Of a DNA stretch of 64,000 nt, positions 14,620 through 34,791 are shown piece by piece (the first letter of the stretch is position 1; the number at the start of each line of letters is the position of its first letter). The translations under genes were made by a program, and so were the position numbers. Source of the stretch: Papaver somniferum (lineage: Eukaryota; Streptophyta; Magnoliopsida; Ranunculales; Papaveraceae); contig NC_039359.1 in assembly GCF_003573695.1 (NCBI RefSeq), positions 117,931,849 to 117,995,848 on the forward strand. Direction: 5' to 3'. The notes beneath the pieces are model-generated. The model searched no databases. It was not told the DNA's origin and saw only the letters and a list, made by a program, of their open reading frames with translations.

Positions 14620-15100
14620 CTCGGTTCCGGCATGAACGTGGTATGAATACAATCGACAGCAACATTCCCGGCATTGTATTCATATTACGTCCATGTCGGT
14701 CAACAATATCCCCCATTTTGAAATGTAAGCCGACATTGTATTCAACCGAAAAAACCATGCTGGTACAAAAGTTACTTTTTACCTACCACGGAATATTCTA
14801 CGGAATATGCTACCGGCATGGTTCAATTCTAAGGTTACCATGCCGGTAACGCTTGAAAAACATACAGGAAGCAGTATCTTCCAAAGCTAAATATCGGCGT
14901 GGTTGATTAATTATCGGTCATGCCGGCACTTTGTACCGGTGTAAACGTAGGTAACGAGCATGTCGGCACCTAGGTTTCCGACGTTGATTTCAAATAAATT
15001 TTTTTATATCGGAAACATTTCAAATTTGGTCTTCAGTTTCGGTTATGTTCAACCATGCCGGAACCCTGGTCGAGCATGCCGGAACTTTGGTCCCGCACAG
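14620..15100. repeat. Motif cluster 1 (CCGGCAT type) in transposase intron 1
   Basis: About ten copies of the core CCGGCATG / CATGCCGG, several as the near-palindrome ATGCCGGCA, spaced 20-60 bp, for example near 14,627, 14,668, 14,810, 14,839, 14,919 and 15,054. Both orientations occur. The neighbouring exons have no such density. Confidence 0.85.
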
Positions 15101-16151
15101 TATTTTAATTTTTTTTTGAACTAATTTATTTTCTTTTCATTCGATCCTTAGGTTGTGACATATATTGATCCAATAAATGCAAGACCACTTGGTCAGGATA
15201 CGTCGAAATACTATAAAATGCCTACGGTATGTTACCAAAGAATACTTTTCACCCAGTATCTTGAACTTTACTAATGGATTGCTTGTAATGAACCTTATAA
15301 TCCCTCATTGTTGTCCTTATGTAGGGAATAAAATATAAAGAGGAAGCAATTGCTTGGGCTAAAGAGACGACTCTTAAGAACATATATGTGTTGGTAAGGA
15401 ATACCCAAGGTTCAAAGATCTGTTTTGAGATGGCTTGCGAGAGAAGTGGGGAATACAAGGAGAAGAATAACCACAAGAGAAATGGTTATGCATATCCAAA
15501 AAAGACTAACAGGGTATACAAGACTCGCACGAGAAAGGATAATTGCCCCTTTAAGCTTGTATTCCATTTAAGAGACAAGGACAATGAATGGGATTATACG
15601 GTGTGGTTCGACCGTCATAACCACCCGGATCCGAAAGATTTTGTTGGTCACTTCCTAGTTGCGAAACTAAAACCTCATGAAATGGAGGATTTAAAGAGAT
15701 TGACCAAAGCATGTATCAAACCGAGACAAATTCTAAGAGGCTTCAAGGAAAAGGATCGGGCGAACATGTCTTCTTTAAGTACAAATTATAACACACAAAC
15801 AAGTATTAGAAGGGTGGAATGGGAAGGGAGGAGCGTTATGCAAGAATTTGAGAAGATTGTTTGGGATCACAATTACACGCGTATCATTAAAAGAGGGACG
15901 AACAAGAAGCCCCTTCAAATATTCATTTCGCATCCTTTGCTTGCAAAATTGGATCGTACATGTTTTGGTGTTCTTATGATGGATTGTACCTACAAGACAA
16001 ACAAATACAATATGCCGTTGTTCAACATCGTGGGGAAAACATCGGACAAGGTATCATTCACATTGGCTTGGTGTTTAATGGAAAACGAGAGGAATTACAA
16101 TTGCAATTGGGCATTACGACAATTGAAATTACTCTTTCCGGGAAAATCATC

Positions 16152-17698
16152 TGATAGACGCATTTATGTGTCTATTTTGATCTTTTTTATGTATTTTATT
16201 AGTACCCATTTGTTCTCATTATGGTGTTTTTATGTGTGTTTAGGTGTTTTTGGAAAAATAAAGTTTTGTGGAGAAATTGGCTAAAAGTGCGGCATTCGGA
16301 GCTCCGTTGATAGCGTACCGGAAGTACCCCGGAGGTGTACCGGAAGTACCCTGGAAATGTCCCGGAGGAACCCCGAAAAAAATGCGGAAAATATCCCGGA
16401 AGAATTGCTAAGGGCACCCCATGGTTATTTACACCCCAAAATGATGTTTACACCCAAATTGTTAAGGGGACACCACTGTTTGCTAAGGGGGAAACCATCT
16501 TCACGATTTAAATTTTGGTTTTGGCGGGAATAATGGTGACAGATTTTAGGGTTGCATTTGAAGGCGATTCAAGGAGATTCAATCACTGGATTTTATTTTG
16601 ATTGACATGTTTGGGCTAAACAGGGATTGTATGGTTAATGGATACGATCCAGTTGGGCTAGAATATCGTATCTTGGCTAAACAGAGGCAGAGCGTGATAT
16701 CAGGGATATCATGGCTGTGGCTGTTGATACGCGTGAATATGGAAGATATACGCTCCTAGGATTCGAACATATCAAGTTAGGAAAGAATATGGAGTAAACC
16801 AGACGCATGCAGAATATTTCCAAATATTTTCCCGTGACTTTTAGGAAAGAAAACAATATTTTTCTTCTCGTGATATCAGCGCCGTGAAGAGAAGATTTTA
16901 TGAAGTTATGATGAAGATATCGATGTTGTTGGGTATATAAAGGCCTCTAGGGTCATCAGAAGTGGGTGTCGAGAGTTGGGAGGAGAGAAGGAACGCTGCA
17001 GAATCGAGAACCATGATTTCTCTCTGCTGCTGCTGCCATTGATGAAGATGAAGAACACGAAGAACGGACCCGCAGCAGCAGTCGTTTACCAACAGTGAAA
17101 GAGACTCAAGGCGTGAGTCGTAGGTGTGGGTCTTAGAGATTCAGTAACAATAGCACCTCTTCTGTGTCGTTTATTTTGGACGCCTTCTGTTGGTCGCAGA
17201 ATCCTGTTTAATACTATTTAATTATCTTTCTCTTCATTGTAAAACACTTTTGAGCATCAATGAAATTCTTAGAGAGCATTTTTACTATGATGAGTTAAAC
17301 CCCAACACTGGGGCGACGGAGGAGGCCGAGCTTCATACATGGGTAATTTTATTAATTCTTTTTAAGACTTTTGCATTAAAAATTAATTGAAATATGATTT
17401 GATTAAATTGGGTGTTATTTGATTAGATGGGTCATGCTTAGCTTAGGTGATTTGATGTTCCATGCTTAACATTTACAACCAATGTTTTGAGAATCGACTT
17501 TGGCAAAATAAGAGTCCATATATCTTTTGAGCGATTATTGTTGAGAATAAATCATTAAGCCTTATGTTATGAAGATTGGCCGAATCATTAGTCCCAGTAC
17601 CTCTCTACCAATTTGTCACTATTTTTGTATATTTTTAATTTTTAATTTTTTTACAAGTCCGAGCAACGAACTTTACTACCACTTTCAAAACTATAACA
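16152..17698 (+). mobile_element. Solo LTR inserted in the transposase DDE core
   Basis: It starts TGATAGACGCATTTATGTG and ends ACTATAACA (1,547 bp), flanked by perfect TCATC duplications (16,147-16,151 and 17,699-17,703). Removing it brings the GKSS codons up to VIITDQDN, which is the conserved MULE order. A TATA-like GTATATAAAGG lies near 16,932. It has no internal domain and kills the transposase. Orientation is taken from the TATA-like box and is less sure. Confidence 0.88.
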
Positions 17699-18914
17699 TC
17701 ATCTTCCGAGGGTGATCATAACCGATCAAGATAACACATTAATGAATGCAATATCCGACGTCTACCCAGATGCACAAAATTTCCTATGTACATATCATAT
17801 ACGTCAAAATGTCGTAAAAGCTTGTCGCGTCTTGTTTGAACCCACTAAGGCGGATATTAAGAAGAGAATGATTGTTCAACTAGAGGAAGACGTTCGCAAG
17901 AACAAACTATCACCTTAAGAAGAAGAAGATGAAAGAGGCAAGATCAAAGAGCGAGTGGACAAAGAACATGAGGAAAATCATAAAAAGTGGTTGGAATTTC
18001 AAATAGATTGGGAGAAAGTTTATTGGTCTCTTACCGAGGATACGTACGAAAAGAATTTGGACAAGTTTATTTCCAATTGGAACGAAGTTTATCCTACTGA
18101 CGTCTCGTATTGTAGGAATCAACGGTTGGATAAGTTCAAGGAAAAATTTGTGCGTGCATGGATAAACTGGTATAAACACTACGGGAATGAATCAACTAGT
18201 ATAACAGAGTCCTCTCCTGGGATATTTAAAGATCTCATTGATTCTAGCCAAGTAGACGTGGTTACGGTCACCGAGGCAATGGAGCAATACTTTAAGAGTG
18301 ATATCGATAGGATCAAGAAGGATTTTGAGAAAAGCTCAATGGAAAGATGACTTCATATCTTCAATATGGTAAGTTGATCCGAGTAATAGAATTCAACGTC
18401 TCTCATTGGGCAATAAAAACATATAATGAGACAAATGCAAAAGGAGATAAACTACGACAAACCGGGTGATGTGTGTATTTGTCCCGACATGTCTTCATTG
18501 GGGCTTCCTTGTCGTCATATGTTTGTGAATTATAAAGAAGTGATACCTATTGAGGTTATTGATCTGTTTTGGAAGCAACCATCTTTCACCCCTCCCCCTA
18601 CGGAAGCTCCCGGACAATCACCATGGGATACGACCGAAGCAAGGGAATTCTTCGAAGCTTACTCATGTGGAAACTCGTCTAACCAGCAAGTCTTGTTGAG
18701 CCAACTAAGGCTAATTACTCGCCCATGGATAGCACAAAGTGAAGAGCCAACAAAGGGAGATCCTCCCGGTAGACCGCAAACCAAAACGGCAGGGAGAAAA
18801 CAAAGGAAAAAATTAAAAGAAATGAGTCAACGTGAATGTGAATTCGAGACAAGTAAGAAACGGAACCCCAACCGCTTGTGAGGTTTCAGAAGCAAGGTTC
18901 ACGGAAGCGCCGGT

Positions 18915-19430
18915 TCCATAAAAAAAGGGTAGGCCAAGGAAGGAACCGTTATCAAGTCAACAACAAACGGCGGATTCCGTATCCACACCAAAAGCCGATG
19001 GATCATAGGTTCCAAAGAAAAGGGGTAGGCCGAAGAAGGTACCCACATCGATTGAACAAGAACAACAAACCGAGGAAGCGGATGCCATACCTAGAGTTGA
19101 TATAGCGGAGGTTACAAAGAAAAAGGGTAGGCCGAGGAAGGTATCCACATCAAGTGACAAAGAACAACAAGGTGAGCATTCCGAAGGCACACCCATTGTT
19201 GATGAGGCGGCGGTGCCAAACAAAAAGGGAAGGTCGAATAAAGAACCTACATCAAGTCAAGTACATCAAGGTGAAAATTCCGAAGCCACACCAAAGATAA
19301 GTGATAGTAAAGGTAAGCGACCCATATCTAGTTAATAACAACACGATGGTGACAACTCCGTAGGCACGACCAAAGTTGATGTAGTTTCGGTTCCAAAGCG
19401 AAGGGGTAGGCCAAGGAAGTATCCACTCTT
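18915..19430 (+). repeat. AT-hook-encoding repeats in the transposase C-terminal region
   Basis: Five copies of a unit coding KKRGRPRK-like AT-hooks are at about 18,925, 19,015, 19,118, 19,217 and 19,396, spaced roughly 90-100 bp for the first four, with Ser/Thr/Gln-rich linkers. AT-hooks bind the minor groove of AT-rich DNA. The fourth unit (KKGRSNK) has lost its core, and stops and shifts interrupt the array (for example two stops near 19,334). Confidence 0.8.
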
Positions 19431-19507
19431 ATCACATATTGAAGATATTGGAAGTGTAGAGATTGCAGAGGATGGATTGGATATAATTAAGCTAAAAAAA
19501 AGGTAAT

Positions 19508-20234
19508 ATGAAGATGTTTAAGGATCCCAAAACAGGTAAAACTTATAGACATTACCATACCAAAATAGAGTCTTATGTAGAGCAACTTCCTGAGGTTGTT
19601 CGCGAGTATACTATATATACGGATGATGTCGATGGAGATGGAAATTGTGGCTATCATTCCGTGACTGAACAATTAGGAATATTTGAGACGGTGGTTAGTA
19701 AAGGGATGACACCATGCCGATATGCGAGAAAGAGGATGACCGAACAACTTATAACTTATGAAAAAGAAGAGATTTTATGAGCAATTGCTTGGTGATGAAG
19801 AAGGGTTTGATAGTCTGTATGCTCGAATCTTAGGACCCGAGAACGAGATGAAGTTCCTTCCTACTCAATATTGGATGGGAATGGCGGTTTTCGTGCATCT
19901 AGTGGCGGATACATTTAATTGTGTTGTTCATTATTTTACCCCCACCGTCCAAGCAACATATACACCAAAGTGGCAAAAGTGCGAAGGATCCCTTAAGTAG
20001 AGAATAGTTGTTTTGGCGTTCGTGAACGTGAATCATTTCATTATTTTGAAACTCAAAGAAAACTGTACATTGCCACCGGTTTTCCCGTTGACTAAAAACA
20101 AGGATATAGCTCCCAATCACTCGGAGGAATGGATGAAATTGTATGAGGAGAAACACCAACTTTGGGATGCGTTGTCTCTATCAATTACCCAAGAGAAGAT
20201 ACAAGTTCCTATGTGTGGAAGCGATAATGAGTAA
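19508..20234 (+). pseudogene. OTU-like cysteine protease domain, frameshifted
   Basis: VDGDGNCGYHSVTEQLG carries the OTU catalytic Cys box (D-G-N-C), and NVNHFIILKL about 120 residues later is the expected histidine region. Between them lie FLPTQYWMGMAVFVHLVADT and FNCVVHYF, which fit OTU helices and strands. A shift near 19,770 and a stop at 19,998 break the frame into three. OTU enzymes remove ubiquitin; OTU domains are found at the end of some plant MULE-encoded proteins. It follows the AT-hook array, so it was most likely the C-terminus of the transposase rather than a separate gene. Confidence 0.75.
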
Positions 20235-20994
20235 TTTGGGTATACGTGGTTCACTAATACGCAACATTTTGTTTTTTTGGAAGTGTGAATTGTAAACATT
20301 AAATCATATTTTGATGACAATGCCGGCATGATTATGTTTCAATACTACAACGTCGTAAGCCGGTGCCGGCGTACAACTAAACTTTTGAAACACTTCCGGA
20401 ATTTCAGAAAAATATCCAGAGAAATTAGTAAATGTGTTGGCATTGAAATTAAATTACAAAATGTGTCGGTACTCCGATAAAAATATTTTGCGTTCGGAAA
20501 ATGCAAACTACCGGCATGGTATCAAAAACAATTCCAATGTCGAAATTCTGTAATTTCGTGATTTTGAAAATTCAGAGTGCCGGCATTGTTTGTACCATTT
20601 TCGACCATGCCGGTACTGTCAGAAAAACTCTGAATTGTGCTCTTGAAAATTCAGAGTGCCTGCATTCCCAATATATCCGGCAAAGAGGTAATTTGACACT
20701 GGTTTATCAACTAAATAAATCAAATAACAACACTAGATTGTTTAAAAAAACCATCTTTAAAGTTAAGATGTTCCAAACCGAAAACAAATCAAACATAAAC
20801 CAAAATAAGAAAATAGTTTAGCAAACACACACAAACAAACACATATTCCACATTTTTCAAGACACACAAACAAACATAAAGCAACACTAGATTGTTCAAG
20901 ACTTAACTAATACCATAGAAGAAACATTAACAAACATCTTCGATCACTCGGTCCTTGGATTATTGTGTACCCTCTTCCTCCTTTCGCCTCACAA
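20235..20994. repeat. Motif cluster 2 and AT-rich spacer
   Basis: This spacer between the OTU region and the convergent PMD gene holds about eight CCGGCAT-type motifs between 20,318 and 20,680 (for example TGCCGGCATGATT near 20,320 and GACCATGCCGGTACTG near 20,603). The rest is A-rich with a CAAACACACA-like stretch and no coding signal. Confidence 0.75.
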
Positions 20995-23900
20995 TTATTT
21001 TGCCTCTGGATCTTCAATGTTGTCTATCTTTTTCTCGACCGTATGTATTTCTTTCGGGGTCAGCACATCTCCTTTCTTGTTCTTGCACTTCAAAAACTTT
21101 CCCAATTTGCGTAGCCGCTGACGTTGTTGTCATATTTTTCAACATGTACTTAGTATGTACAATTATACAAGTTCATAGATGTAGATTAAAATAATAGGAA
21201 GTTAACAAGAAGTACGTTCCAACAACATAAGGGTCTTTTGAAGTGCTGGAACAGTTAATTCATCCGGAGTTGTGGAGGGAGGTTCTGGTTGCGGAGGGAC
21301 TTCGACGGTAGCCGACGTACAACATAAGGATGCGAGTACTTCACATGACTTCTGAGGAAGTCTGATTCGGACTCATAACCGTTTTCCGCCAATTCCCAAT
21401 CAACCATATCCAACACAAATCCTTATTATTCTCTTTCAATCCAATGTACAGTAAGGGGATTTGGGTGGGAAACTACCAGAGTATGCTTTTCATTTGCTTG
21501 GCATTGAGGAAACTCATGAGAGAATTTCCAATAAGATGTATCCGTAAGACTTTTCTGCTTGTACCCAAGTTGACGCATTACGCGACAAGAGTTATGCATG
21601 ACAAATCCTTTCGGATGAAATAACGGTCCGTTGTAAAATGAAACATTGTCACGCCTTGCAAAGTGAATCCCTCTGGCATCCCTATATAGGTCAAACACAA
21701 CATCTTGGGCAACGAAAAAGTCCAAAGCTACTCTCACGGCGAATAAACGTTTCTTGTTATTGGGCTTCAAAGCATTGTTGAAAAAGTATTTCTGAGCTAG
21801 AGGCTGATGGGGTTGATAATCATGCGTTAACTTCAACCTTTTGTGCCTCGTGAACAATGTTGGGAAGTGTTCATAAGCCCACACCTATGCCAATGAAATA
21901 TTGTTCCAATGAAATGTATAAGAAAACAAATAATTGGAAACTAACAAAATTAATGACAATGATCACAAAATAACTAGTTCACTATACCTGAATTACAGTG
22001 AAATTCCCAATAAATTGACAGGCGTTCGCCTTAGAAGCTCTACGCATCTCTCCCAAAAAATGTGCCAAGAAATTAGTGCCCCATGAATACTCATTAACCT
22101 TATCCAAGGGATCCAAGTATTGTATGCTGTTCATATGCACCCTGTTACCACCAGCGTCAGGGAATATTATGGTGCCCAAGGTGAACAACAGATAAGCAAC
22201 TGCAGTTTGCTGAATTTGTTCCGGATTCAATTCCTTGTCCTTCGTATTCCCAAACAATTGTATGAGATTTACGAATTTGATAGTCTTTGTCCAGGTACGC
22301 TCTGTCCTGCACATATTTTCCATAGTCGTTTCCTGGTCCCACCCAAACAACTTTTGAGTCAGCTCATAGATCTTGGATCATTCTAGGTCCTTATAGTTAT
22401 CTCCTTCCTTAACGGCTTTCCCAAGAACCTCTAGACCTAGTATTCTTTCGAAATATTCAGGGATAATGGTCATCTCGCCAAAAGGAAAATGCATGGTATT
22501 AGTTTCACCAAAAAACCTCTCCAAGAAGCAATTCGTCGTAATGGTATCAACGGCCACATAATTTTCTACCGCTGGATACAACCCAGATGCTATGACTAAT
22601 GCTTGAACATCAACACACTCCCACTCCAAAGGCCATATATCCATCGATTGATGGCGTCCAACACGGAAGGCTTTCTCGTGGTTCTATAAAAACACACCAA
22701 ACTAACTTAAATACAACTGATCATATATAAATAATATAATAAAAAGATGCAAACGCCTTACATAAGTTTGATAGATCCAACGAGCCCAAGAGTTCTTGTA
22801 GTTAAATAAGAGTTGCGGCTCCAACGGCTCACCCCACTGTTTGCCGTCATTGCGGTATGGAATCATGTCATATCTTTTGGGAAGGTGGGATTGGGGTCCC
22901 TTTTCCTTTTTCTCACTGGATTCAACTGCAGCTTGTCCTAAGCCTTGTGAGGATGAGCCACCTGCTCGGGATGGTTCAGAAGGCACAAAATTTTCCCACT
23001 CTTCATCATCATTGCTGCTTGTGTCCCCCGTTCGATCCCGAATGATGATCTTAGCACGTTCCGGATCAGATCGACTACGTCGAGGCCGAGAAGACGTACG
23101 TTTACGTTCTTCAACAACTTTTCCCTTTCCTTTCTTGGTTTGTACTGGTCTAGACCTACGTCCAAATATGTCAACTGAGTTATATACAGAAATCCGACAT
23201 GGATGGTAAACATAAAATCTGTCCCAGTAGAAGTGTCGGCATAGTAAGCAACTGAATAACAAAGCCGGTAATATGGGAAATTTGCACAGAAATTTAACAA
23301 AAGAATAAAATCAAAACCGGCATGGATAGTAAACAAAACGACACTGCCGGCATCTGTGCCGGCGTAGATATTTACAGATTAACTATGCCGGTAATTTGGG
23401 AAATTTGTACAGTTTAACAAAAGAATGAAATCAAAATCGGCATGGATGGTAAACAAAACGACACTGCCGGCATCCGTGCTGGCGTATCTATCGATTTACA
23501 GATAAACCATGCCGGTAATGTGCGAAATTTGTACAGAGATTTAACAAAAGAAGGAAATAAAAAACGGCATGGAATATACAAAACCACACTGCCGGTATCT
23601 GTGCCGGCGTATCTATTTACAGATAAACCATGCCGGTAATATGGGAAATTTGTACAAAGATTATACGTCTTTATTAAATGTACAAAGACATATAATCCGG
23701 CCATGTTCAGGCATTGTATGCAATTTTATTTCTATGCCGGTATTTCCATGCAATAAAAGGGGGATACAAGACATATAATTTGACATGGTTTTCAAATTGA
23801 GTTCTACGGCGAAACAAACTTGTAACTGAATTTCAATTAACTATATTGCAATTTGAATTTTTTCTTTTAGTGTAGTAGAAATACTAAACAAGCAAGTTTA

Positions 23901-24126
23901 AATTTGTGTTTTCTAGTATGGGATAAACCCTAAAAATGCTTCAATTCAACATAGACATCACTTACCGCATCATATTTGCTATTTCCTCATCATCATCTTG
24001 TTCAAGAGTTGCTTGATTTATCATTACTTCGTGCACTTGTAGCGCTTTTGATTTCGATTTACCACCATCATCAACAGACTCTTCAGGATTAGGTTTAGGT
24101 TTTTCAGGAGGTTTGCGACGACCCAT
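20995..24126 (-). pseudogene. Plant mobile domain (PMD) gene, copy 1
   Basis: Exons on the minus strand: first at about 24,126-23,965 (MGRRKPPEKPKPNPEE, basic and acidic), then about 23,160-22,764 (Lys/Arg/Ser-rich, ending WARWIYQTY), 22,682-21,989 and 21,887 down to about 21,230, and a last exon ending at 20,995. The third carries the PMD signature: MDIWPLEWECVDVQAL, FPFGEMTIIPEYFERILGL, TAVAYLLFTLGTIIFPD and LDKVNEYSWGTNFLAHFLGE. PMD proteins such as Arabidopsis MAIN and MAIL1 act in nuclear gene and transposon silencing; PMD genes are also carried by transposons. A TGA at 22,378-22,380 replaces an expected Trp codon, and a stop after the HWIERE codons at 21,426 truncates the tail. The first intron is full of motif repeats. 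Confidence 0.78.
23190..23740. repeat. Motif cluster 3: four tandem units of about 120 bp in PMD1 intron 1
   Basis: Units begin near 23,190, 23,314, 23,433 and 23,561. Each contains a CGGCATGGA start, an ACTGCCGGCATCTGTGCCGG core and an ATGCCGGTAATNTGGGAAAT end. This is the densest motif array in the window and the only one organised as a clear tandem repeat. Confidence 0.88.
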
Positions 24127-24329
24127 TCTTCTTAGATGAAACAAAATAAGAGAGTTTAGTGGTTTTGGAAATTCCTTTGGAAGAGCCGAGAAGTAAAAAC
24201 AAAGAGAGATGGAAAGATGAAATACTTTCCTTTCTATAACCGTCGCTTAAATAGAATTAAGGAGTTTGTAATCGACACATAAATGGAATTAAGGAGTTTG
24301 TAACCGCCACATAACTTAAAGAGGTTGTA

Positions 24330-24600
24330 ACCGTCGGAATTCCGACATGGAAAGATGGTACAATTCAATACCGACATTCTGACACTAAGTTTAAATTGAG
24401 ACCAGGATACCGGCAATGTATGTTGATCACACTTCAACGTCGGCAACCTTGTCGGTATTGTCTTTGGTTATTATTTAATGCCGGCATTCTGACGATCAAT
24501 TTAAATTGAGTCCAGGATAGTGCATCGTATGATGATCACAATTCAATTCCGGCATTTGTACCGGTATAGTCTTTGGTTATTTTGCGATGCCGGCTTACGC
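24330..24600. repeat. Motif cluster 4 upstream of PMD copy 1
   Basis: At least six motifs (TACCGGCAATG, AACGTCGGCAACC, TGCCGGCATTCTG, TTCCGGCATTTGTACCGG, GATGCCGGCTTAC) lie in the spacer between the start of PMD copy 1 and the 3' end of the coiled-coil gene, that is in the likely promoter. A small tandem repeat of GGAATTAAGGAGTTTGTAA is at about 24,252-24,302. Confidence 0.8.
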
Positions 24601-24752
24601 ACCACAAAAAGAAGTATCCACCAAAGGTTTAAGCAAGGAAACTGACCCAAACTGGCCTTCATATTAATCTTACGGAAATAAACTTAAAAACATTAACCAC
24701 ATAAACAACGTTCCACATAAAATGAAAGATCTTAAGCTAATTGTAACTAACA

Positions 24753-25452
24753 TCATTTATTGGAATGAGATTCAATAAACAAAGCATCTTCGAAATGCCT
24801 AAAAGGCTCTTTTCTCCACTTGGTATATGCGTCCTGAGCTTGATACATATTTCCTCTATATCTTGCGAGAAACTCGTTGTATTTGCGACATAATTTTATG
24901 AGCGCAATTGTTCGATTCGATACAAACTCATCCCCGTAATCCATTTTGTGTTTCTTGCACTTACCGTCCACAAACTTCAGCATATAAGGACCATCCGTAA
25001 CAAGACCCCAAAAAAGGTTTAAAGGGCGGTGATCTTCCGGGAGATCCGATACCATGTAGAAATTTTTAATCCATTCGGTTTCTTCCTCAATATCCGCTTT
25101 TATCTTCGCTTGTTTTACACGTTCGTATATCTCTTTAGTTTCTTTGAGATATTTTGCTTCTACTGCTGCCTCTTTTTCTTCTTCTCTTTTCCTTTTAAGT
25201 ATCTCTTCTTCCATTGTGGCAATTGACTTGGTGGTTTCTTCCTTCCTTCTAAGTTTTTCTTGTATAATGGTAATTGAGTTGGTGGTGGATGATAATTACT
25301 ATCAGAGTGGATAGTTTGTTCTTCTTAAGTTTTTCTTTTTCCATGGCAATGATGAAATCGGTAGTTGGTGATGGATTTGCCATTAGAGATATGTGTTGGA
25401 GCTTACTTTTTTTTTTTGAGGTATCAAGTGCAATGGGTGTATCCATTCCTTT
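24753..25452 (-). CDS. Lys/Glu-rich coiled-coil protein of unknown function
   Basis: The main frame (25,214-24,753) begins MEEEILKRKREEEKEAAVEA and continues charged and helical for about 50 residues, then changes to a more mixed region (DLPEDHRPLNLFWGLV, YMLKFVDGKCKKHKMDYG) ending at a stop. Upstream, another frame from an ATG at 25,452 (MDTPIALDTSKKKSKLQH) appears to be the true N-terminus, with a frameshift near 25,300; a related stretch (TNSITIIQEKLRRKEETTKS) leads directly into MEEEIL. So the full gene would give about 230 residues and is probably damaged by one shift. I recognise no family. Coiled coils usually mediate protein-protein contact. Motif clusters lie on both sides. Confidence 0.5.
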
Positions 25453-25489
25453 AAATAGATGAGGACACAACGGTTTTTTTCCACTTTAT

Positions 25490-25770
25490 CATTCCGGCAT
25501 TGTCAGTAACCTAAAATACGCGCCGGCAGTTCCCTTTACTGGTTTACGGTTTAAAAAAATAGTCGTTGGGCATTGAACTATGGTTAAACATAATGCCGAC
25601 AACAACTGCCGGCATGGAGTCGTGTATAAAATCAATGCCGGAATAAGGTTTATTGTACACAGAAACCATAACATTTTGACACTCCATCCCGGCATAGAGT
25701 TATATATAAGATCTACGCCGGCATGGTAACGACATTGAATTATGTTAACATAGTATGTCGGAACTATAAT
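25490..25770. repeat. Motif cluster 5
   Basis: Motifs such as CATTCCGGCATTGTCAG, GCGCCGGCAGTTCC, ACTGCCGGCATGGAG, AATGCCGGAATAAGG, ATCCCGGCATAGAG and ACGCCGGCATGGTAA recur every 30-50 bp between the coiled-coil gene promoter and the 3' end of Myb-like copy 1. Confidence 0.85.
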
Positions 25771-25789
25771 TTATTTCAAATGTAATCCT

Positions 25790-25890
25790 TGTCGCAGGAA
25801 GCACGGATGCACTTAGTACGTGCATCAAGCCTTTGAACCACTTGATGACCCAAGTGGACGAGTTATAGTCTCGTGAGGGTTTACATAGAG
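25790..25890 (-). ncRNA. Conserved three-hairpin segment, copy B (3' UTR of Myb-like copy 1)
   Basis: In plus coordinates three perfect stems follow one another: GATGCAC 25,806-25,812 with GTGCATC 25,820-25,826, CCACTTG 25,838-25,844 with CAAGTGG 25,851-25,857, and ACGAG 25,858-25,862 with CTCGT 25,870-25,874. The same layout is at 29,711 and 59,462. It lies 70-170 bp beyond the stop codon of the gene transcribed from the minus strand, so it should be part of the transcript. Confidence 0.55.
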
Positions 25891-25961
25891 ATATAACCAC
25901 AAAACCTTACCAAAAACTACCCTAACGACCTAACCATAAAACACTAAACTTATCAATCTTC

Positions 25962-26449
25962 TTACGAAGAATCCGTCTCCGATTCACCCAGTTGGTGGTA
26001 CTCTGTGACTTTGGTTACCATGTGGTTCACGTTTTCATCAAACATGAATGCTTCCCCCTTTTCCTGTAAGAAACGCGCTTTCACGGCTTCATGCTGACAA
26101 AACAACACACAAACTTAGTTTGTTACATAAAAATTGAAAAGAGTGGACTGTGTCGAATTAAAATTAAAAAGATACTTACGAGTTGTTGAGGGGACATTCT
26201 ATTGTTGGTAGCGTGCGCGATGCGGTGTTTGATTTTTAAAAACTCAACCACCACATCTAGGATGTTGTCGTGTCGTTGCTCGATTTGTTGAGAAGTTCTT
26301 CCTTTCGGGTTCCCATAATCCTGAGTAAATTTGTTAAAATTCTTCAACCACATGGAATCCCCATAACTGTTATCTATAGTTGAAGGATGAGTTTCGGCGT
26401 ACCATGCTTGGGTGATTGTTAAATCTTCCTAGGAGTCAAACGATGCCAT
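25962..26449 (-). pseudogene. Myb/trihelix-like gene, copy 1 (stop codon in exon 1)
   Basis: Two exons, 26,449-26,180 and 26,093-25,962, join with GT/AG borders. The product matches copy 2 (29,850-30,369): DLTITQAWYAET, NFNKFTQDYGNPKGRTSQQI and HDNILDVV, then after splicing HEAVKARFLQEKGEAFMFDE and an acidic end. This is the helix pattern of the Myb/trihelix-like DNA-binding proteins related to PIF/Harbinger ORF1 and plant NAM-associated proteins. Codon 7 is TAG where copy 2 has an Asn codon, so this copy starts only if a downstream Met is used. Clusters 5 and 6 flank it. Confidence 0.7.
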
Positions 26450-26599
26450 TTGTTGTATGTGGGAGTAGGTTCTATACTAATCTATTTATAGATGTCTCTT
26501 AGGGTTTAGGGTTTTATAAGAGTCTCAAGAACACACGAGTTTTGGTTCAAGTATGAGCTCTCTTTAAATAGAGAACAACCTCAACGGCTAGTTCTTTTT

Positions 26600-26825
26600 G
26601 AAATTAGAGGATCCCGACATTGTAGTTAGTATGGAACCGAATGCCGGTACCAAGTTACGGTGTTGACTACTATTCAATATTCATGTCGGTACTTGATCTT
26701 TTTTTACAAAGATTCGGCATAATCTGCAGTAAATGCCGGCATAGTATCAACACCAACATACAACGTCGATGTCCGCTACCGGCATTGCGTATATTTATGC
26801 GACCATGCCGGCATCTCGGAAATTC
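26600..26825. repeat. Motif cluster 6 between divergent genes
   Basis: Motifs (ATCCCGACATTG, ATGCCGGTACCAAG, ATGTCGGTACTTG, AATGCCGGCATAGTATC, CTACCGGCATTGC, CATGCCGGCATCTCGG) fill the spacer between the minus-strand Myb-like gene and the plus-strand GRF gene, so they could act on both promoters. Confidence 0.85.
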
Positions 26826-27006
26826 AACAAAAAAAAACGACTAGTTTTTTGAAAAATAAGACCGTTGGAGCTTCATTCTATATAATACCCCCCCATTCCT
26901 TTGGAAAAATTTACAGAAAGCACCCACCAAATAACAAAAATCCTTCTCTCAAGAAAGCAAGCCTCAAAAAATAGATCAAGCAACCACGGTTCTAGTTTCA
27001 CAAGTG

Positions 27007-27537
27007 ATGGGAGATTCATCAACAAGCTCTATTTGCAAACCACAATCAAGCTCTACCTGCAAAGTAAGGAGATTCAACATTACTAACAATATATAGAAAG
27101 TTAAAATCTTCTCTACTAGGACGTATCACTAATATAATCTTATCTTACAGACTCATCATTGCAGCTGTCAAATTTGCAAGTCACCTTCTCATCTAGCCAC
27201 GGATTGTCCTTTTATTAATTCGAAGTGTAGAAACTGTGATGGGACACGCCGGTTTTGGATTGCAAAAAATGATGATGCTAAAAATGGAAGAATGTTTCTA
27301 AGGTGTTTGAATCACCCAAAGTGCGATGAGTTTCAATGGTTTGACAAAGCTGTTGCAATAGCAGAATCAAGAGAAAACCACAAGGGCCAATGCAAGCCTA
27401 TTGATGGGTGTGATGGGTGTTATATGAAGGGAAAAGAATATGTTGAAAGAGAAGATGAACCAATGAGGATAGTCCTTGACACCGAACTCCCAGACGATGT
27501 CTTCGAAGATATTCACGAAAGGCTCAAAGGAACGTAA
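27007..27537 (+). CDS. Small CCHC zinc-knuckle plus GRF zinc-finger protein, intact
   Basis: Exons 27,007-27,063 and 27,151-27,537 join at a clean donor (AAAGTAAGG) and acceptor (CTTACAG) in phase 0, giving 147 residues with no break. Residues about 23-36 are a zinc knuckle (CQICKSPSHLATDC, C-x2-C-x4-H-x4-C). It runs into a GRF-type finger: CRNCDGTRRFWI, then GRMFLRCLNHPKCDEFQWFD with the terminal aromatic-Trp pair. A C-rich loop (CDGCYMKG) and acidic tail follow. GRF fingers bind single-stranded nucleic acid in repair proteins (for example topoisomerase 3-alpha, APE2), and short plant GRF proteins are common near transposons. It is the only gene of the composite element on the plus strand besides the transposase, and one of two still open. 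Start chosen as the first ATG giving a phase-compatible exon. Confidence 0.78.
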
Positions 27538-28138
27538 TTGTTGAAAAGGGATGGAAATAGATTATGAGATCATTTTGAACCAAAATTACTCCATTCCATG
27601 TTTTTTAGTATGTTTTAATTTAAAGTTTCAAATACAATGTAATATATTATCTATGAAAGAAATAAAAAGAGCATTCGTAATAGATCTATAATCAATCCCG
27701 GCATTGTAGTTATAAATTCTGAAGGGTTTACAGAGTGCCGACATGGATAGATATCTTAATTACCATGCTGATTTTCTGCAAAACTATCCAAGTTTAAAAA
27801 AATCAGAATTCCGACATGGATTCCTATAAATATTTCTATGCCGACACAGTTCAAAACCTATACAGGAACTTGGACCCTTTCATCCCCACTTTCCGACATG
27901 GTTTTATAGAAACATTTCAATGCCAGCATGGAATTTTAATAACGTATCTACGTCGGAAATATCTTCAACATAAACCAAACAACTGAATTGTGCTTAAATG
28001 TTCTTAATCCAGGTATCATAACCAAAAGTAAACCAAACCGCTAAAGAGTTCCTCATGAGGTACAAACAATAACAAGTTCGAAATTGTTCAAAACGTAACA
28101 ACCACCATCCAAATAAAGAAACACAACTAGAGAGTTCA
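27538..28138. repeat. Motif cluster 7 and spacer
   Basis: Between the 3' ends of the GRF gene and PMD copy 2, motifs AATCCCGGCATTGTAG, GTGCCGACATGG, ATTCCGACATGG, TATGCCGACACAG, TTTCCGACATGG and AATGCCAGCATGG occur at 27,698-27,960. They are more drifted than in clusters 3-6. The rest is AT-rich with no coding signal. Confidence 0.75.
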
Positions 28139-29083
28139 TCACTTGTTCTTTTTCTTCTTGGCGAGCACCTTCCTCGTTTCCCCGAACAAAGATTTTGCAC
28201 TTGGGTCTTCAATTTTATCAAGTTTTTCCTCGACTTTCTTCATTTCTTCAAGGGATATCACCTCTCCTTTCTCGTACTTGTCACCAAACATCTTCTTCAA
28301 CTTGCCAAGCCGACGTCGCTAGTTTTATACATCCAACACATAATTAGTATATATATGCTAATATAAGATTATGTGTACATTAATTGACTAATCAATTAAC
28401 AATACTTACTAGAAATCCAACGGTCTTCTGAAGTTCAGCCATCGTAGGTGGTGCCTTTGTAGGAGTTGGAGCGGGAAGGTTTTTCTGGGGTGGAACTTCG
28501 ACGTCGTCCGGGCGCACAACAAAAGGATGTGACATTTCCAGGTAATAAAACATGTAGTCGGGGTGGGCTTCATCACCGTTTTATGCAAGCTCCCAGTTAC
28601 TAATATCTACCAAACGACGTGGTTCCCTGTCCCTCCAATGTGTTGGTTCTGGAATTAGATCATACTCTACCCTAAACTTCAGCTTAGTTGAAAAGCTCAG
28701 AGGACGGTCAATTGCATACCTTTCAAAAGAGGATGTCTCGGGATAAGGTAATTGCTTATATCCAAGTTCCCGCATGACACGTCGGGGATCAGCCATAACG
28801 TATCCCTTTGGGTGGAACAACGGTCCATTGTAAAATGCAACGTTATTATACCTCAAAATTTGGTGGTTCTCTCTAGCCTCCTTGTAAGGGTCAAACACAA
28901 CCTCTTTGGTAGTCATCGCGTCCAGAGACAATCTCTTATTTGTCAATCGACGATTATTATCGGGCTTCGGAATATTGTTGAACTCGTATCTCTTAACTCT
29001 ATGCTCCTCGGGTTCGGAAAGGTTTTTGACTTCAAGAAGGGGTATTTTGTGAACAATGTTGGGAAGTGTTCATAAGCCCTCAC
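28139..29083 (-). pseudogene. PMD gene, copy 2, C-terminal part only
   Basis: Exon 29,083 to about 28,410 follows an acceptor (GGTATAG) and reads VRAYEHFPTLFTKY, then VVFDPYKEARENHQILRYNN, VAFYNGPLFHPKGYVM and HWRDREPRRLVDISNWELA. The equivalents in copy 1 are VWAYEHFPTLFTRH and VSFYNGPLFHPKGFVM. A stop at 28,580-28,582 interrupts the tail, and there is a small shift near 28,990. The last exon (about 28,320-28,139) encodes a basic/acidic coil, LGKLKKMFGDKYEKGEVIS, ending KKKKNK, parallel to the last exon of copy 1. The exon with the PMD signature helices is missing upstream of 29,085, so this copy is truncated by deletion. Confidence 0.75.
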
Positions 29084-29364
29084 CTATACCAATGTGGAAT
29101 GATACATATAAGAAGCAATAAATTTTATTTCTAAGTTCATAATAAGGGTACATGTGAACAATATGAATTTAAGTTATGAAATTTTGTTTTTGATTGAACT
29201 TATGTGGGAAGATTTTTGATGAAAAAAATTTGTTTAAAGAATATTTTTTGCAACGGAAATGAAAGCACGCTACCCAAATACTTCTAAAAAGGGGATTGCA
29301 AAGCTCTTGTAAGAAATCATACTTAAAATTAAAGAAGAAATCGACACTTTCAGTTCTGAAAGTA

Positions 29365-29625
29365 TGAAAAGTCGGCAGGGTCGACTAATGAACACCATGC
29401 CGACTAAGGTTGGCCGGCATGCTTGTCTCTAAAAAACAATGTCGATTGTATTATATTTGAGACACAGGAGATTGTGTTAAAGCCTCACTAGTCGGCATCT
29501 TATTGATTTATTACCTTACCGGTTATCCCAAAGTCGGAATCTAATTAATTTCTCACCTTGTCGGCCAAGGTATAGTTGGTAAGGTAATAATGTTACTACC
29601 TTGCTGACATTTGGCTATACACAAA
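29365..29625. repeat. Motif cluster 8: transition to GTCGGCAGGGTCG type
   Basis: The first motif here (AGTCGGCAGGGTCGAC at about 29,372) is the second dialect, yet a CCGGCATG copy (near 29,414) is still present. Others are TCGGCATCTTATT, CTTACCGGTTATCC, CTTGTCGGCCAAGG and CTTGCTGACATTTGG. No coding signal is seen between 29,085 and 29,710. Confidence 0.75.
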
Positions 29626-29710
29626 AGAAAATAGATTCTTGAAAGCTGTAATTTACTTTATTCATGCAATTTTTGCTACTACATTGATTGAAACATAAAA
29701 TCCAACTCTT

Positions 29711-29810
29711 TGTCGTAGGAATAACGAATGCACTTAGCACGTGCATCAAGCCTTTGAACCCGTAGGCAACCCTAGTGGACGAGTTATAGTCTCGTGAGTG
29801 TTTACATAGA
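29711..29810 (-). ncRNA. Conserved three-hairpin segment, copy C (3' UTR of Myb-like copy 2)
   Basis: Hairpin 1 (ATGCAC 29,728-29,733 with GTGCAT 29,741-29,746) and hairpin 3 (ACGAG/CTCGT around 29,779-29,795) are kept. Hairpin 2 is weakened to an outer CC/GG and inner TAGG/CCTA pairing. It lies about 40-140 bp beyond the stop codon of the intact Myb-like gene. Confidence 0.55.
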
Positions 29811-29849
29811 AATCTACCCACAAAACCTATATAAAAACTTTTAAAACCG

Positions 29850-30369
29850 TCAATCTTCGTCGGAGGAATCCGATTCCGATTCACCCACCATCATCTCCGG
29901 GGCATACTCCGGAATCTTGGATACCATGAAGTGATAGCTTGCATCAAATTCGAATGCTTCCCCCTTTTCCTCCAAGTAATGCGCTTTAGCGACTTCATGC
30001 TACAAAACAAAACACAAACTTACTTTGTTAGTGGTTTTTATTAGGAAGATCAAACAACATGGATTACGTAAAATAAACCACAAAAATACTTACAAATTGT
30101 TCAATGGACAAGTTAAAGTGGATAGCGTTCAAAATCTGATGTTGGATAGCTAAATAAGCAAGTATCACATTTTCGATGACTATGTGCCTATCATGGATTT
30201 GTTGAACACTTCTTCCATTCGGATTCCCAAATTCTTGACTATATTTGTTATATACTTTTGCCCAAAAGGTTTCGGCATCTACCCTTATGGAGGACTGATT
30301 TCTAACTCGAGTTTCGGCGTACCATGCTTTGGTGATGGATAGATCTTCATTTGAATCAATTGATGCCAT
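29850..30369 (-). CDS. Myb/trihelix-like DNA-binding protein, copy 2, intact
   Basis: Exons 30,369-30,094 and 29,999-29,850 (donor TTTGTAAGT, acceptor TTGTAG) join in phase 0 for 141 residues without a break. The N-terminal half has the helix pattern of Myb/trihelix-like proteins related to PIF/Harbinger ORF1: DLSITKAWYAET, TFWAKVYNKYSQEFGNPNGR, VQQIHDRHIVIENVI. The second exon encodes HEVAKAHYLEEKGEAFEFDA and an acidic tail GESESDSSDED. Such proteins bind DNA and can bring transposases to element ends. Here the linked transposase is a MULE, which is an unusual partner; a captured host gene is the alternative. Cluster 9 lies upstream, the hairpin segment downstream. ATG chosen as first in frame and matching copy 1. 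Confidence 0.75.
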
Positions 30370-30554
30370 TGTTGTATGTAGAGGTATTGAGAGATTTAGA
30401 GAGATTAGATTATGATATGAGCTTTGGAGAGTATATGCAAATAGGTGTGTGTTGTTTTGTAGAGAGAACTAGTGTATTTATAGGATGGTTCCCAAATTTG
30501 GATGTTAGGGTAGTCAATCAATGCAGTTGTACTTGCAAAAATTTGAATTTTGAA

Positions 30555-30995
30555 CTCGCCGGTAAGGTTACTGTTTCCACAGTATGCCGACTAACATACC
30601 GTCGGCAGGGTCGTAATTTTCTTACCCTGCAGACTATAACAATTTTCATACACAGGAAATGTCATAATCTGCTGCATATGGTCTGCAAGGTATTTGTTTA
30701 TTACAATACCGACTGTTATACCGTCGGTAGGGTCGTAATTTTTTCACCTTGCCGATTTTATGATTTTTGTAACACAGGAGAAGGTCATTTTCTGTTGCAT
30801 ATAGTCGGCAGGGTCGATAATTCATTTGATTGCCGACTGTTATACCGTCGACAAGGTATTAATTTTTTTACCTTGCCGACCCTGGTAACTACACCATTTC
30901 TGTTGTCAGGGCCGGCAGTCTTTCAGTTCACAACCTTTCCCCTGGTTTAGTCGGCACTGTAACTTAACAAAACATTCACTCAAGACCCTGTCGGC
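30555..30995. repeat. Motif cluster 9 (GTCGGCAGGGTCG type) upstream of Myb-like copy 2
   Basis: Examples are CCGTCGGCAGGGTCGTAATT (30,599), CCGTCGGTAGGGTCGTAATT (30,729), AGTCGGCAGGGTCG (30,802), CCTTGCCGACCCTGG (30,874) and GGCCGGCAGTC (30,909). ACCTTGCCGAC is the same motif inverted. The 30,996-31,150 remainder is AT-rich with nothing recognised. Confidence 0.85.
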
Positions 30996-31162
30996 TGAAT
31001 TATTGAAACTTAACATAACTAAACAAACCATTCATTCAACAACTAGAAATCCAACATTTGTCCAAAATAAGAAAACATATGTCCCATAATCCTTAAAAAA
31101 ACATTTGTCCAACCATTAACCAACATTTGTCTACCACATAAAGAAATAAACTAGAAATGCAT

Positions 31163-34100
31163 TCATTCACGACCACAACCACTACCACGACCCCGTTTAT
31201 CATTTTCACGACCACCACCACTACCACTACCACAACCACCACCACCACGGGTACGAGGCCTATTTTTTCAGTATTCCTCTTGGCTTGTGCTTCCCTCTTT
31301 AGTTCAGCATTAGCTTGCTGGAACATTTCAGTGGAATCTTCATTGTCAACATTGCTAGCATAGTCAATGTGCTTAGTTTTCTCTTCAATCGACAAAGGCT
31401 CTCCTCTTTCTCTCGCGCAACACATCATCTTCACAAGGGTCTTCAAATGCTCCTTCTATTTTCAATTACACAAAAAATAATTAATGGAATGATTCGATAA
31501 TGTAATCATAAAACAATAAGAGCAAGTCTAAAATACTTACAAAGTTCTTAAGACTTGTTGTTGGGTCTTTCGGTGGCATCTTCCTCTTACGAGCCGGTTA
31601 TTCAACATTATCTTCCCTACCCACAATAGGACGAGAAAAATCCAAGTACCACGACATGTAATCTTCATGATCTTCATAACCCTCGGTCACCTCGTCCAAA
31701 AGACTCGTATCGATTTTACGGTCACTTTTATCGTCCCAATGAGAAATCACTGGTGGTGGAGCGTAACGGACGTCAATACTTTTTTGGGACGTGCTGCACT
31801 CCTCCCTTACCACTTTAAAGAACGGATCATCACCGAGATGAGGTACTTCTTGGATGTAACCCACTTGTCGCAAAACCCGTTGTGGATCGTACATTGAAAA
31901 TCCTTAGGGGTAAAACAAGGGACTGTAGTATAATGCAACATCATCTCTCATTTTGATTATACCTTCATTTCCATTATCTCGATAAGGATCAAATATTACC
32001 CCATCCTCAGTCATTTTGTCCAAGGCGACTCGCATGTAGATAAGCTGTTGTGGCGTATCCTTATCCTGAGCACCAGTAAAACTGTATCGTTGTCCTCTTG
32101 GCTTGTGACTCGCAAGCTTAGTGTTCACTTTGATGTGGGGGTTGTCTTTCACCAAAGAAGGGAAGTGCTCATACACCCAAACCTATGCATACACAAAGTT
32201 TAATAAGAATCTTATCTTATAAGCATTTTGCAAATATAAATGATTTAGACAATTGGATTACCTGGAAGAGACATAGATTTCCGTTAACTTGTTTAGTCAG
32301 TGCCGTTGAACCCTTTGTCAACTCTGCATTCAAGAAGGCAACCACCACAATACCCCAAGAATACATATGCATCTCATGAAAGGGATGCAATAGTTGAAGA
32401 TACGTAGCGTCGACCAAGCTTCAGAACTGTCGGGGAAGATACAGTTTCCCAAGATGTATAGCAAATAAGCTGACGCAGTAGCATTGATTTGCACCGTGGA
32501 CACACTTCCTTCGTCATCAAAGATTTTCTGGGTCCCAGAGTATGTGTCCCGCAACATCTTCAGATTTAACTTCCTTCTTATATAACCATCCTTCTTCACA
32601 ATCAAAGACTTGGACTGCTTCTCATCCAAATCGAACAAGATCTTGGTCAATTTGAAAAAAAAATCCCAAGAAATGCCTTCTTCGTAGCCATCACTGATTG
32701 CTTTTCCCTCAACCTCGAGGCCTAGAATTTGATGAGCATCATCGGGAATTACCGCCATCTCACCGAATGGGAATAACATTGTATCAGTCTCTCCGTAGAA
32801 CCTCTCACATAATGCAGATACGGTAACTTTGTCATACTCAACAATCGAACTCTCCACCGTAGGCCACAACCCGGAGTTCTTGACAATCGATTGCACCTCA
32901 GCACATTCTTTGTCAAGTGGCCATAACGTCATCATAGTGCTTGAAGCTTGGTGCCTCAAAAGACGGATGACACGCTTGTGATCCTAAGTACCAAAAACAC
33001 AAAATTAAAACAAATACAAACACTTGAAGCAAATTTAAGATAGATAAATAGATAGATACACTTATATAAAAACAAAGTTTTATTGAGATTACTTACGATC
33101 GCACCATGGATTTCACGTGCCCATGAGTCTTTGTATCCAAAAAGAACATGTCCACCAACTTCTGGGGTCCCTAGTGGAGGCTGACCTGGTTTCAGTGTGA
33201 TCTTCAAGTGAGGGGGAAGCATGTGGGAATCAGTTGGTTTAGTGATAACCCTCTTCGGTCTTCCGATTGCGTATGCAGTTGCAGTTCCAGTTGCAACTTG
33301 AGTTTGTTGATCATTACCAGTTTTTCTCCACCTTCTTCTTCTTCTTGCTCTTCAACAATTTCACGTTGTCCATCATTATCTTTATCACCATCACCATTAC
33401 CTCCTCCAACAGGTGGTATGTCTTGATCATCATCATCATGCTCGTCAGCTCCTCCAGCAGACGGAGTACTTTCAACACCAGCTGATTCATCTGAATCACT
33501 GGGTTCCGTTGAGCGGAGTTCTTTCAACACCATCATGATCATTACCTCTTCTACCAGATGGAATTGATTGGTCTTCATCTGGAGTTTCATATGAATCACT
33601 GGGTTTCGTTGGTGGTTGAGAATCATTCCGTTCACGGATCTTGAGCGTTCCCCGCTGAATGTCGCTCGATGTGTTGCAGTCAAGAGTTTGTCACTAACAC
33701 GAGGAGGTCTTGAAGGAGGAGTAACATTTTTATTCTTTCCCTTTTGCAACCTAAACAAGAACAAATTAAAAAAAAAAAATCAATAGTCGGCAGGGTCGAC
33801 AAGTATAAACTACGCCGGCTAAACAATAGTCGGCAGGGTCGATAACTGTAATCTATGTCGGCTAAACAATAGTCGGTAGGGTCTTATTCAACTAACCTGC
33901 CGGATTATAACAACTCTGAACACAGTAGATATAAGGATTTTCCAAATAATTAGTTGGCAGGGTCTATAACCCATACAATGTCGGCGAAATTGCAGCTGGC
34001 AGGGTGGTATTCAAATACCATGCCGACCTTTATGACTTTAGGCATCATGAGACACCAAAATTTTTCAAAACACACCGCCGGTAGGGTAAAAATTTAAAAC

Positions 34101-34531
34101 CCAGCGACTGTAAGAAACATATATCGCCGACAAGGTATTAAGGTTGAATACCTTGCCGACCCTGTAAAAAGCAATTACAGATATTAACAGCCGGCATGAT
34201 ATTCAACCTAAGAGCTTGTCGACTAACCCTACATATGAAAAGTCGTCAGGGTCGACAATCAGAGACCCTGCCGGCTAAATAACTGCAGATTCACAAATTT
34301 GATTTTTCTGACCTAATTTGACATGCAAACATAAAATTGAAGTACTAGAGTGAGTTTAAGTAAGCCCTTACTTTCTCAATCGCGCCATTTCTTCGGGTTC
34401 AGTGGCGTTGATCTCTTCTTCTTCGACAGTTTTTTTACTCAGTTTGTGTTGAATAAATTTGCAATTCCAGGGTTGTATCGATTAGGTTTTCTATTTGTTT
34501 GTTTCATACGACTAGCCCTCGGCGGTTCCAT
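31163..34531 (-). pseudogene. PMD gene, copy 3, with RGG-like glycine tail
   Basis: First exon 34,531-34,372 (MEPPRASRMKQTNRKPNRYN, one indel), second about 33,757-33,096 (acidic, many Asp/Glu; ends WAREIHGAI, internal shift near 33,220), third about 32,984-32,262 (MMTLWPLDKECAEVQSIV, FPFGEMAVIPDDAHQILGLE, SAYLLYILGNCIFPD, then a shift near 32,412 into the HMYSWGIVVVAFLNAELTKG frame), fourth 32,183 to about 31,541 (VWVYEHFPSLVKDN, LYYSPLFYP, then a stop at 31,904 where copies 1 and 2 have Lys). The last exon ends in a Gly/Arg/Ser run (RTRGGGGCGSGSGGGRE) out of frame by one base. RGG tails bind RNA in other proteins. Intron 1 holds motif cluster 10. Confidence 0.78.
33780..34285. repeat. Motif cluster 10 (GTCGGCAGGGTCG type) in PMD3 intron 1
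   Basis: About fifteen motifs, for example AGTCGGCAGGGTCGACAAG (33,786), AGTCGGCAGGGTCGATAAC (33,828), AGTCGGTAGGGTC (33,870), CCTTGCCGACCCTG (34,153) and GACCCTGCCGGC (34,261). The position in intron 1 matches clusters 1 and 3. Confidence 0.87.
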
Positions 34532-34791
34532 GTTCGAAGATTAATCGACGATTTTTCAATCGGTTTTTGATGAAGGAGACCAGTTTCAGCCGGTATGGTG
34601 GAGGAGAAGAAGAGGAGAGAAGATGAAATGAAAATAAAATGAAAGGAATTAAGTTTAGTTTTAATTTTAATTTTAATGCATAAGAGAATTTTTGTAACTT
34701 TGCTCATTTTAACATCCCCTAGCCCTTCAAATGAGTCCCTTTAAAATTAGGTGTACACCAATTAATCTGGGTATACCCCAATCTCGCCAGG

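Follow-up and report, generated by a model that had tools for sequence, protein, structure and literature searches.

Transposable element (TE) proteins that are linked to methylation loss include TnpA, MURA and VANC (PMC10398659; here and below, what is said of published systems refers to passages of the papers cited). In Arabidopsis, VANDAL21 and VANDAL6, with their proteins VANC21 and VANC6, are Mutator-like elements (MULEs) in which short motifs recur in introns and other noncoding regions (PMC5735166). These motifs are partly arranged as tandem repeats, and related families differ in motif (PMC5735166). Anti-silencing was also offered, as speculation, for plant mobile domain (PMD) proteins captured by MULEs (PMC5418596), and soybean CACTA elements show stem-loop subterminal repeats and two divergent subfamilies (PMC2613891). 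Here we describe a 64-kb stretch of the Papaver somniferum genome (C2:117,931,849-117,995,848, hereafter the window), which contains a MULE of one family, A, inserted in a MULE of another, B, each with dense arrays of its own paired motif in noncoding DNA. The VANC parallel drawn in the original prediction, which was made from the letters of the window, is apt: short motifs are reiterated in the noncoding DNA of a MULE, partly in tandem. We consider, at roughly even odds (about 0.5), that family-specific factors encoded by the elements bind these arrays and most likely keep the noncoding parts free of silencing marks.

Paired motif arrays in two nested elements

The core YCGRCA was counted in four compartments: element noncoding DNA (8,329 bp), coding sequence (CDS, 10,976 bp, with approximate borders placed by visual inspection of reading frames and splice signals), flank (43,168 bp) and an insertion of 1,527 bp. 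The noncoding DNA contains 106 cores (12.7 per kb), the CDS seven (0.64), the flank 28 (0.65) and the insertion one (0.65), a noncoding density ~20-fold above CDS and flank. Dinucleotide shuffling of the noncoding segments (300 times) left a mean of 7.0 cores and never more than 18. The enrichment expected by the original prediction over coding and shuffled DNA is therefore present, and the equal density in exons or flanks that it named as counter-evidence was not found; its statement that exons lack the motif is right in that they show background rate only, but the seven CDS cores make it not strictly true. CCGGCA is the top hexamer in a k-mer count of noncoding element DNA (52 against 1.26 expected; none in CDS and three in flank), and the hexamers ranking after it are largely its variants. 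As exact words, ATGCCGGCAT is found at four places in the window, GTCGGCAGGGTCG at five, and CCGGCATGG/CCATGCCGG at 12, of which 11 are inside the element.

Two site spellings are present: TnCCGRCAtGGT left of 28.1 kb (type A) and AGTCGRCARGGT right of 29.1 kb (type B). The first core base is T in 12 of 76 A sites and 20 of 30 B sites (p=8e-7), and RGG stands behind the core in one of 76 and 13 of 30, respectively (p=9e-8); sites within a tandem array depend on one another, so that both p values are underestimates of unknown degree. The arrays are built of convergent inverted pairs, CCGRCAtGG...CCatGYCGG, with a fixed distance between the two cores. A matrix derived from the same 106 sites, and thus circular for density but not for spacing, gives 154 hits in noncoding DNA, eight in CDS and 27 in flank. 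Among these hits, 42 convergent noncoding pairs lie at 25-28 bp, against a mean of 14.9 and a maximum of 27 in 5,000 trials with randomised orientations. The spacing is itself type-specific: 26 A pairs are at 26-28 bp and 16 B pairs at 25-27 bp (p=3.6e-7). Exact-core pairs at 25-28 bp number 17 in noncoding DNA, and neither the flank (28 cores) nor the CDS (seven cores) contains any. Half-sites and their spacing persist, while the sequence of the spacers is almost uninformative. Summed arm identity within a pair, compared with permuted pairs, is 9.4 against 10.2 for A and 10.0 against 10.3 for B; the arms of one pair are thus no more alike than those of other pairs, and there is no sign of compensatory change. 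A and B clusters show no alignment to each other, though their genes align. The motifs had been described as palindromic, which holds for the 28 of 106 cores that are full palindromes (TGYCGRCA); the constant architecture, the site pair, had been overlooked.

When neighbouring sites <=250 bp apart are joined, the element shows exactly ten dense clusters, as had been claimed, each with 7-16 cores; the motif occurs in both orientations, also as claimed, and one cluster includes a CDS core. Clusters 1 to 7 belong to type A: cluster 1 (14,627-15,082; 13 cores, four pairs) is in transposase intron 1, cluster 2 (20,321-20,682; 10 cores, four pairs) between two 3' gene ends, cluster 3 (23,194-23,740; 16 cores, six pairs) in PMD1 intron 1 with 120-bp tandem units, cluster 4 at 24,272-24,593 (10 cores, four pairs, a 109-bp tandem unit), cluster 5 at 25,494-25,761 (10 cores, three pairs), cluster 6 at 26,614-26,813 (nine cores, two pairs), and cluster 7 (27,698-27,898; seven cores, two pairs) again between two 3' gene ends. 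Clusters 8 to 10 belong to type B: cluster 8 at 29,341-29,564 (seven cores, three pairs), cluster 9 at 30,585-30,994 (10 cores, four pairs, a 122-bp tandem unit) and cluster 10 (33,787-34,274; 13 cores, eight pairs) in PMD3 intron 1 with a 43-bp tandem unit. The location of two of the ten clusters between convergent 3' gene ends speaks against a promoter role. The motif does not fill all noncoding parts, as had been stated: only 11 of 24 noncoding segments contain a core and 10 contain at least seven, and the 13 core-free segments are short inter-exon gaps and the outer 374 and 255 bp. The sole flank group consists of three YCGRCA cores at 58,419-58,623.

The motif type switches from A to B at the junction of the two nested elements. 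The A-type MULE (15 kb; 14,056-29,168, + strand) shows its left end, and its right ~2.5 kb are missing. Over this whole interval it is collinear, mostly at 74-84% identity, with a relative, E (the reverse complement of L029+L030, C1:15,802,000-15,819,999, a locus rich in A pairs). Relative E contains genes for the transposase, an OTU-like protein, PMD1, a charged protein, a Myb-like protein, a GRF-like protein and a longer PMD2, and it shows 87 cores of type A (59 followed by T and one by RGG), with 27 and 28 as the commonest convergent spacings. The B-type element, which is 5- to 6-kb and carries only Myb-like and PMD genes, is split into a left terminus at 13,947-14,054 (+ strand) and a body with right end at 29,162-34,791 (+ strand), including the right terminal repeat at 34,746-34,791. 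The left terminus is 79-95% identical in seven of the 11 other loci with a gene for Myb-like protein 2; in seven of the 11, the copy of 13,947-14,054 stops 30-105 bp ahead of a match to the window from 29.12-29.34 kb onward, and the match resumes at 29,162 in L033, L036, L040 and L041. Since E is collinear with the A part and the two B parts lie close together in these loci, the A element is nested in the B element. The single element of the original prediction is consequently two, and its one motif set is two spellings that belong to two families; one chimeric element with two specificities was considered and rejected in favour of two nested elements.

The ends are those of MULEs: terminal inverted repeats and target duplication are present, and the left end of the window copy is damaged. 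A 44-bp direct repeat (13,906-13,949, + strand, and 34,792-34,835; 95% identical) flanks the composite. Its left copy contains the expected target duplication TAATTTCTTC and occupies the place of the ~25 bp at the outer edge of the left terminal repeat, which are absent, so that this end looks like the product of a repair in which the right flank was copied. A complete B copy (L034+L044) of ~5.0 kb shows three B clusters, ~52-bp terminal repeats (89%) and an 8-bp target duplication, TTATATAT; of seven protein queries only those for Myb-like and PMD genes match it, and neither this copy nor L043+L033 shows a match to the A transposase. The target duplication of an A derivative, L009, is CTTTAGAAAG (read by eye). 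The ends read CCTGGCGAGATTGGGG (B) and ACGCGCGATTGGGGG (A), with 8-10-bp duplications, and are not CACTA ends with a 3-bp duplication.

Abundance and conservation of the sites

Genome-wide searches ran on the 2.715-Gb assembly, with gaps of 2-32 permitted in the pair patterns (31 gap lengths). The A pair CCGGCAT...ATGCCGG has 5,990 occurrences and its reversed pattern 87; for the B pair GTCGGCA...TGCCGAC the numbers are 3,901 and 189. Among the first 50 places listed for each type, from the start of one contig, the spacing is 26-29 in 48 A pairs and 24-27 in 45 B pairs. The plain 9-mer CCGGCATGG occurs 34,774 times, against 1,863 for its control, a count that overstates the families: a convergent exact-core pair at 26-28 bp is present in seven of 20 loci fetched for this word. 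At least three of the other loci, L012, L013 and L027, are GC-rich repeats with CATGCC-rich tandem arrays and without convergent motif pairs, and repeats of this kind explain part of the count.

A loose first-look search for the Myb-like protein 2 gene turned up 4,752 candidates; 150 of them were scored, and the majority of these lack an internal stop. Among the 11 loci besides that of the window, nine contain B arrays and two, L038 and L042, almost none; a PMD gene is inside the fetched stretch at eight of the 11. Three gene-less derivatives of ~1.25 kb show A ends, longest reading frames of <=93 aa and 19-23 cores, against 4-7 cores in their surroundings (~8.6 kb each); they were picked by motif and so do not give the share of derivatives with arrays, and L015 (partial, 18 cores) was excluded from them. 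In one derivative, L009:4559-4789 contains 10.9 copies of a 21-bp unit, ATGAAGACCATGCCGGAAGTG, in which the motif is amplified in tandem.

Between the window and E, CpG is retained at 49 of 58 core positions, 34 of 95 other noncoding positions and 166 of 277 CDS positions (core against noncoding, p=2e-9), although the location of E via its motifs may inflate the core figure. This bias does not affect the nine B copies, which were located by protein: 128 of 150 core CpGs are kept, against 153 of 247 others (per-site p=0.002). L038 and L042, with few cores, were omitted from this alignment and from that of all core positions of B copies below. Of the 23 A pairs that could be aligned (three of the 26 could not), 17 keep their spacing, against 45% of control positions. 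Other observations count against constraint on the sites: the advantage of all core positions together is small between window and E (81% against 77%, p=0.08) and among B copies (0.859 against 0.845), exact A cores are found in E at only 36 of 72 alignable positions, and the coding blocks of E hold nine cores in 6,695 bp, twice the background rate of the window. Core and spacer divergence within tandem arrays (p=0.13) was uninformative, and in at least one of the eight comparisons an overlapping stretch had been aligned with itself. Taken together, the pair geometry, the family-specific types, the retention of CpG and the presence of arrays in derivatives without genes make it very probable that an element-encoded factor recognises these sites in a family-specific way.

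Genes of the two elements

The transposase gene of the A element (14,328-18,880, + strand; PF10551, E-value 1e-23) is split by an insertion at ~16,150-17,694. This insertion of ~1.5 kb is missing from relative E, is flanked by ATCATCT and contains a 22-bp tandem repeat, GTACCGGAAGTACCCCGGAAAT. The next region (18,881-20,235, + strand) encodes KKRGRPKK-type repeats, which we take to be AT-hook-like, and then an OTU-like protease with a Pfam match under cut-off; the repeats are in a 102-bp coding tandem repeat of 3.9 copies (18,905-19,292) between the transposase and OTU-like parts. Three genes follow on the - strand: PMD1 (20,996-24,126; PF10536, 2e-34), broken by stop codons in this copy, a charged protein (24,756-25,380), 79% identical in E and with no Pfam family above cut-off, and Myb-like protein 1 (25,950-26,446), which has one stop near its start and which we presume to be Myb-like from weak fold matches. 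The A element also contains a CCHC/GRF-like zinc protein gene (27,006-27,537, + strand), with no Pfam match above cut-off and presumably of GRF type, and the 3' half of PMD2 (28,142-29,168, - strand; PF10536 at 0.0034, under cut-off), where homology to E stops. The B element contains Myb-like protein 2 (29,860-30,369, - strand), an open reading frame, and PMD3 (31,165-34,530, - strand; PF10536, 1e-43), frameshifted in this copy. In database searches, the PMD and transposase proteins of the window match Papaver somniferum sequences best, at 66% and 36% identity, respectively.

For Myb-like protein 2 no homologues were found in the protein database. The structure model of the Myb-like protein shows three helices with a mean confidence (pLDDT) of 73.7 and a non-significant resemblance to Myb-type DNA-binding domains; a search of solved structures gave just a chance hit (E-value 1.7), and the NCBIfam search gave no match, nor did PMD3 DNA against a phage collection. 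The Myb-like protein 2 gene is under purifying selection: the ratio of nonsynonymous to synonymous substitution rates (dN/dS) is ~0.47, and dN is below dS in all 55 pairs of the 11 best-scoring copies, with L036, which is out of register, left out. Relatives of Myb-like proteins 1 and 2 are found ~1 kb apart on the same strand at C2:145,505,135/145,506,174 and C9:178,617,240/178,618,253, and are perhaps further families with two readers. In the flank, 56,961-57,006 and 63,477-63,522, 6.5 kb apart, gave identical tandem-repeat calls (TTTGGGCTTCTAAATTGTGC) and are perhaps the two ends of another element.

Proposed function of the arrays and comparison with known systems

Each convergent half-site pair could be read by a dimer or a bridged complex, and each family would have a factor of its own that recognises its half-site spelling and spacing. 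The Myb-like and/or PMD proteins are the best candidates for this role, because the B element has a motif of its own and no gene besides these was detected in it. By binding across introns and spacers, such a factor would keep silencing marks off, in the manner of VANC in VANDAL elements. An anti-silencing action of the factor is our best guess, by analogy with VANC (PMC5735166), with TnpA and MURA (PMC10398659) and with the speculation on captured PMDs (PMC5418596).

The main rival, possible but in our judgement doubtful, is that the arrays serve transposition in cis and are the target of an accessory DNA-binding protein, in the style of TnpA and CACTA. CACTA elements do have inverted, family-specific reiterated motifs and element-encoded binding proteins, and the poppy arrays are present in gene-less derivatives; yet they are spread over the full 15 kb of the A element, within introns and between 3' gene ends, and are not beside the termini, whose outer 374 and 255 bp are core-free. 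Host transcription factor sites, used by the elements as enhancers or promoters, are an unlikely explanation: the half-site TGYCGG, which we take to resemble auxin-response and dehydration-responsive element (DRE)-like sites, would suit it, but the position of the arrays in introns and between 3' ends, and two family-specific spellings and spacings that switch at the A/B junction, would not.

A neutral satellite spread by slippage, which the original prediction had named as an alternative, is improbable. Four clusters do contain tandem arrays (43, 109, 120 and 122 bp units) with 35 of the 106 cores, and 42-43 bp accounts for eight of 31 gaps (<150 bp) between neighbouring pair starts. It fits poorly overall, however, since motif and spacing are retained even in places with a diverged spacer; core density without the arrays is still 9.9 per kb, A and B clusters do not align although their genes do, and core CpGs are lost less than others, also in the B copies chosen by protein. 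It is very improbable that the arrays are host-recognised silencing signals turned against the elements, given that selection on the element should purge them and that the three gene-less derivatives (chosen by motif) keep dense arrays, one of them tandem-amplified. Least probable of all are inverted pairs acting as RNA hairpins (for processing or small interfering RNA) or DNA cruciforms: each pair could form a ~10-bp stem, but the arms show no covariation, and unlike arms with uninformative spacers argue against a hairpin as well as against recent satellite spread.

If the arrays are bound by anti-silencing factors of their own families, these elements are a further case for the question of whether TE-encoded sequence-specific anti-silencing belongs to few known elements or is a general strategy. 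They provide two diverged sets of reader and site, with 9,891 exact pairs in a single genome, and the natural two-gene B element narrows the reader to the Myb-like or the PMD protein. Among the matches listed in one open-access literature collection, no poppy report was found for a Papaver somniferum MULE, and no VANC-like system outside Arabidopsis appears in their titles or abstract starts.

The VANC systems differ from poppy in several respects. No fixed inverted-pair spacing is seen in the passages of PMC5735166, whereas the poppy pairs are fixed. VANC carries DUF1985 and DUF287, neither found in the poppy proteins, whose candidates are the PMD and Myb-like proteins; for DUF1985 there was no match at E-value <=1 among nine predicted proteins at Pfam level, with approximate gene models. 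The VANC motifs YAGTATTAY, AGTTGTCC and AGTTGTAC are not enriched (zero, zero and two in element noncoding DNA; one, zero and two in flank). The target-site reading of the original prediction thus stands for family-specific recognition behaviour, and not for the VANC domain or the VANC motifs.

The En/Spm 12-mer is absent from the window. Both En/Spm TnpA/CACTA and poppy show motifs that are reiterated, partly GC-rich and also present as inverted copies, and that diverge between families (PMC2613891). An element-encoded DNA-binding protein is likewise common to both, though only predicted in poppy, and TnpA is linked to demethylation (PMC10398659). CACTA repeats are subterminal with a 3-bp target duplication, and the poppy arrays are internal, in MULE-type elements with 8-10-bp duplications. 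MAIN, MAIL1 and PP7L with the DOWN motif (PMC7156037, PMC9899485) resemble the poppy case in that PMD proteins are associated with a DNA motif and with the silencing of TEs, but form a host complex for which direct DNA binding is not demonstrated in those passages; the DOWN site printed for MORC1, CATGCAGTTT, is absent from the window. The MULE-captured PMDs of PMC5418596 also place PMD genes in MULEs; there they are fused to the transposase (grasses, Amborella), whereas in poppy they are separate genes and the B type is without transposase, and the poppy families make the speculation of that paper, a captured PMD as an anti-silencing factor, testable. Compared with these systems, we tentatively suggest that poppy may show a second independent invention of sequence-specific TE anti-silencing, with PMD and Myb-like proteins instead of DUF1985, and with half-site spelling and spacing as a private family code; the B type would then be a transposase-less parasite that has hardly anything beyond its reader (two genes) and sites, and its copies would number in the hundreds at least, perhaps in the thousands.

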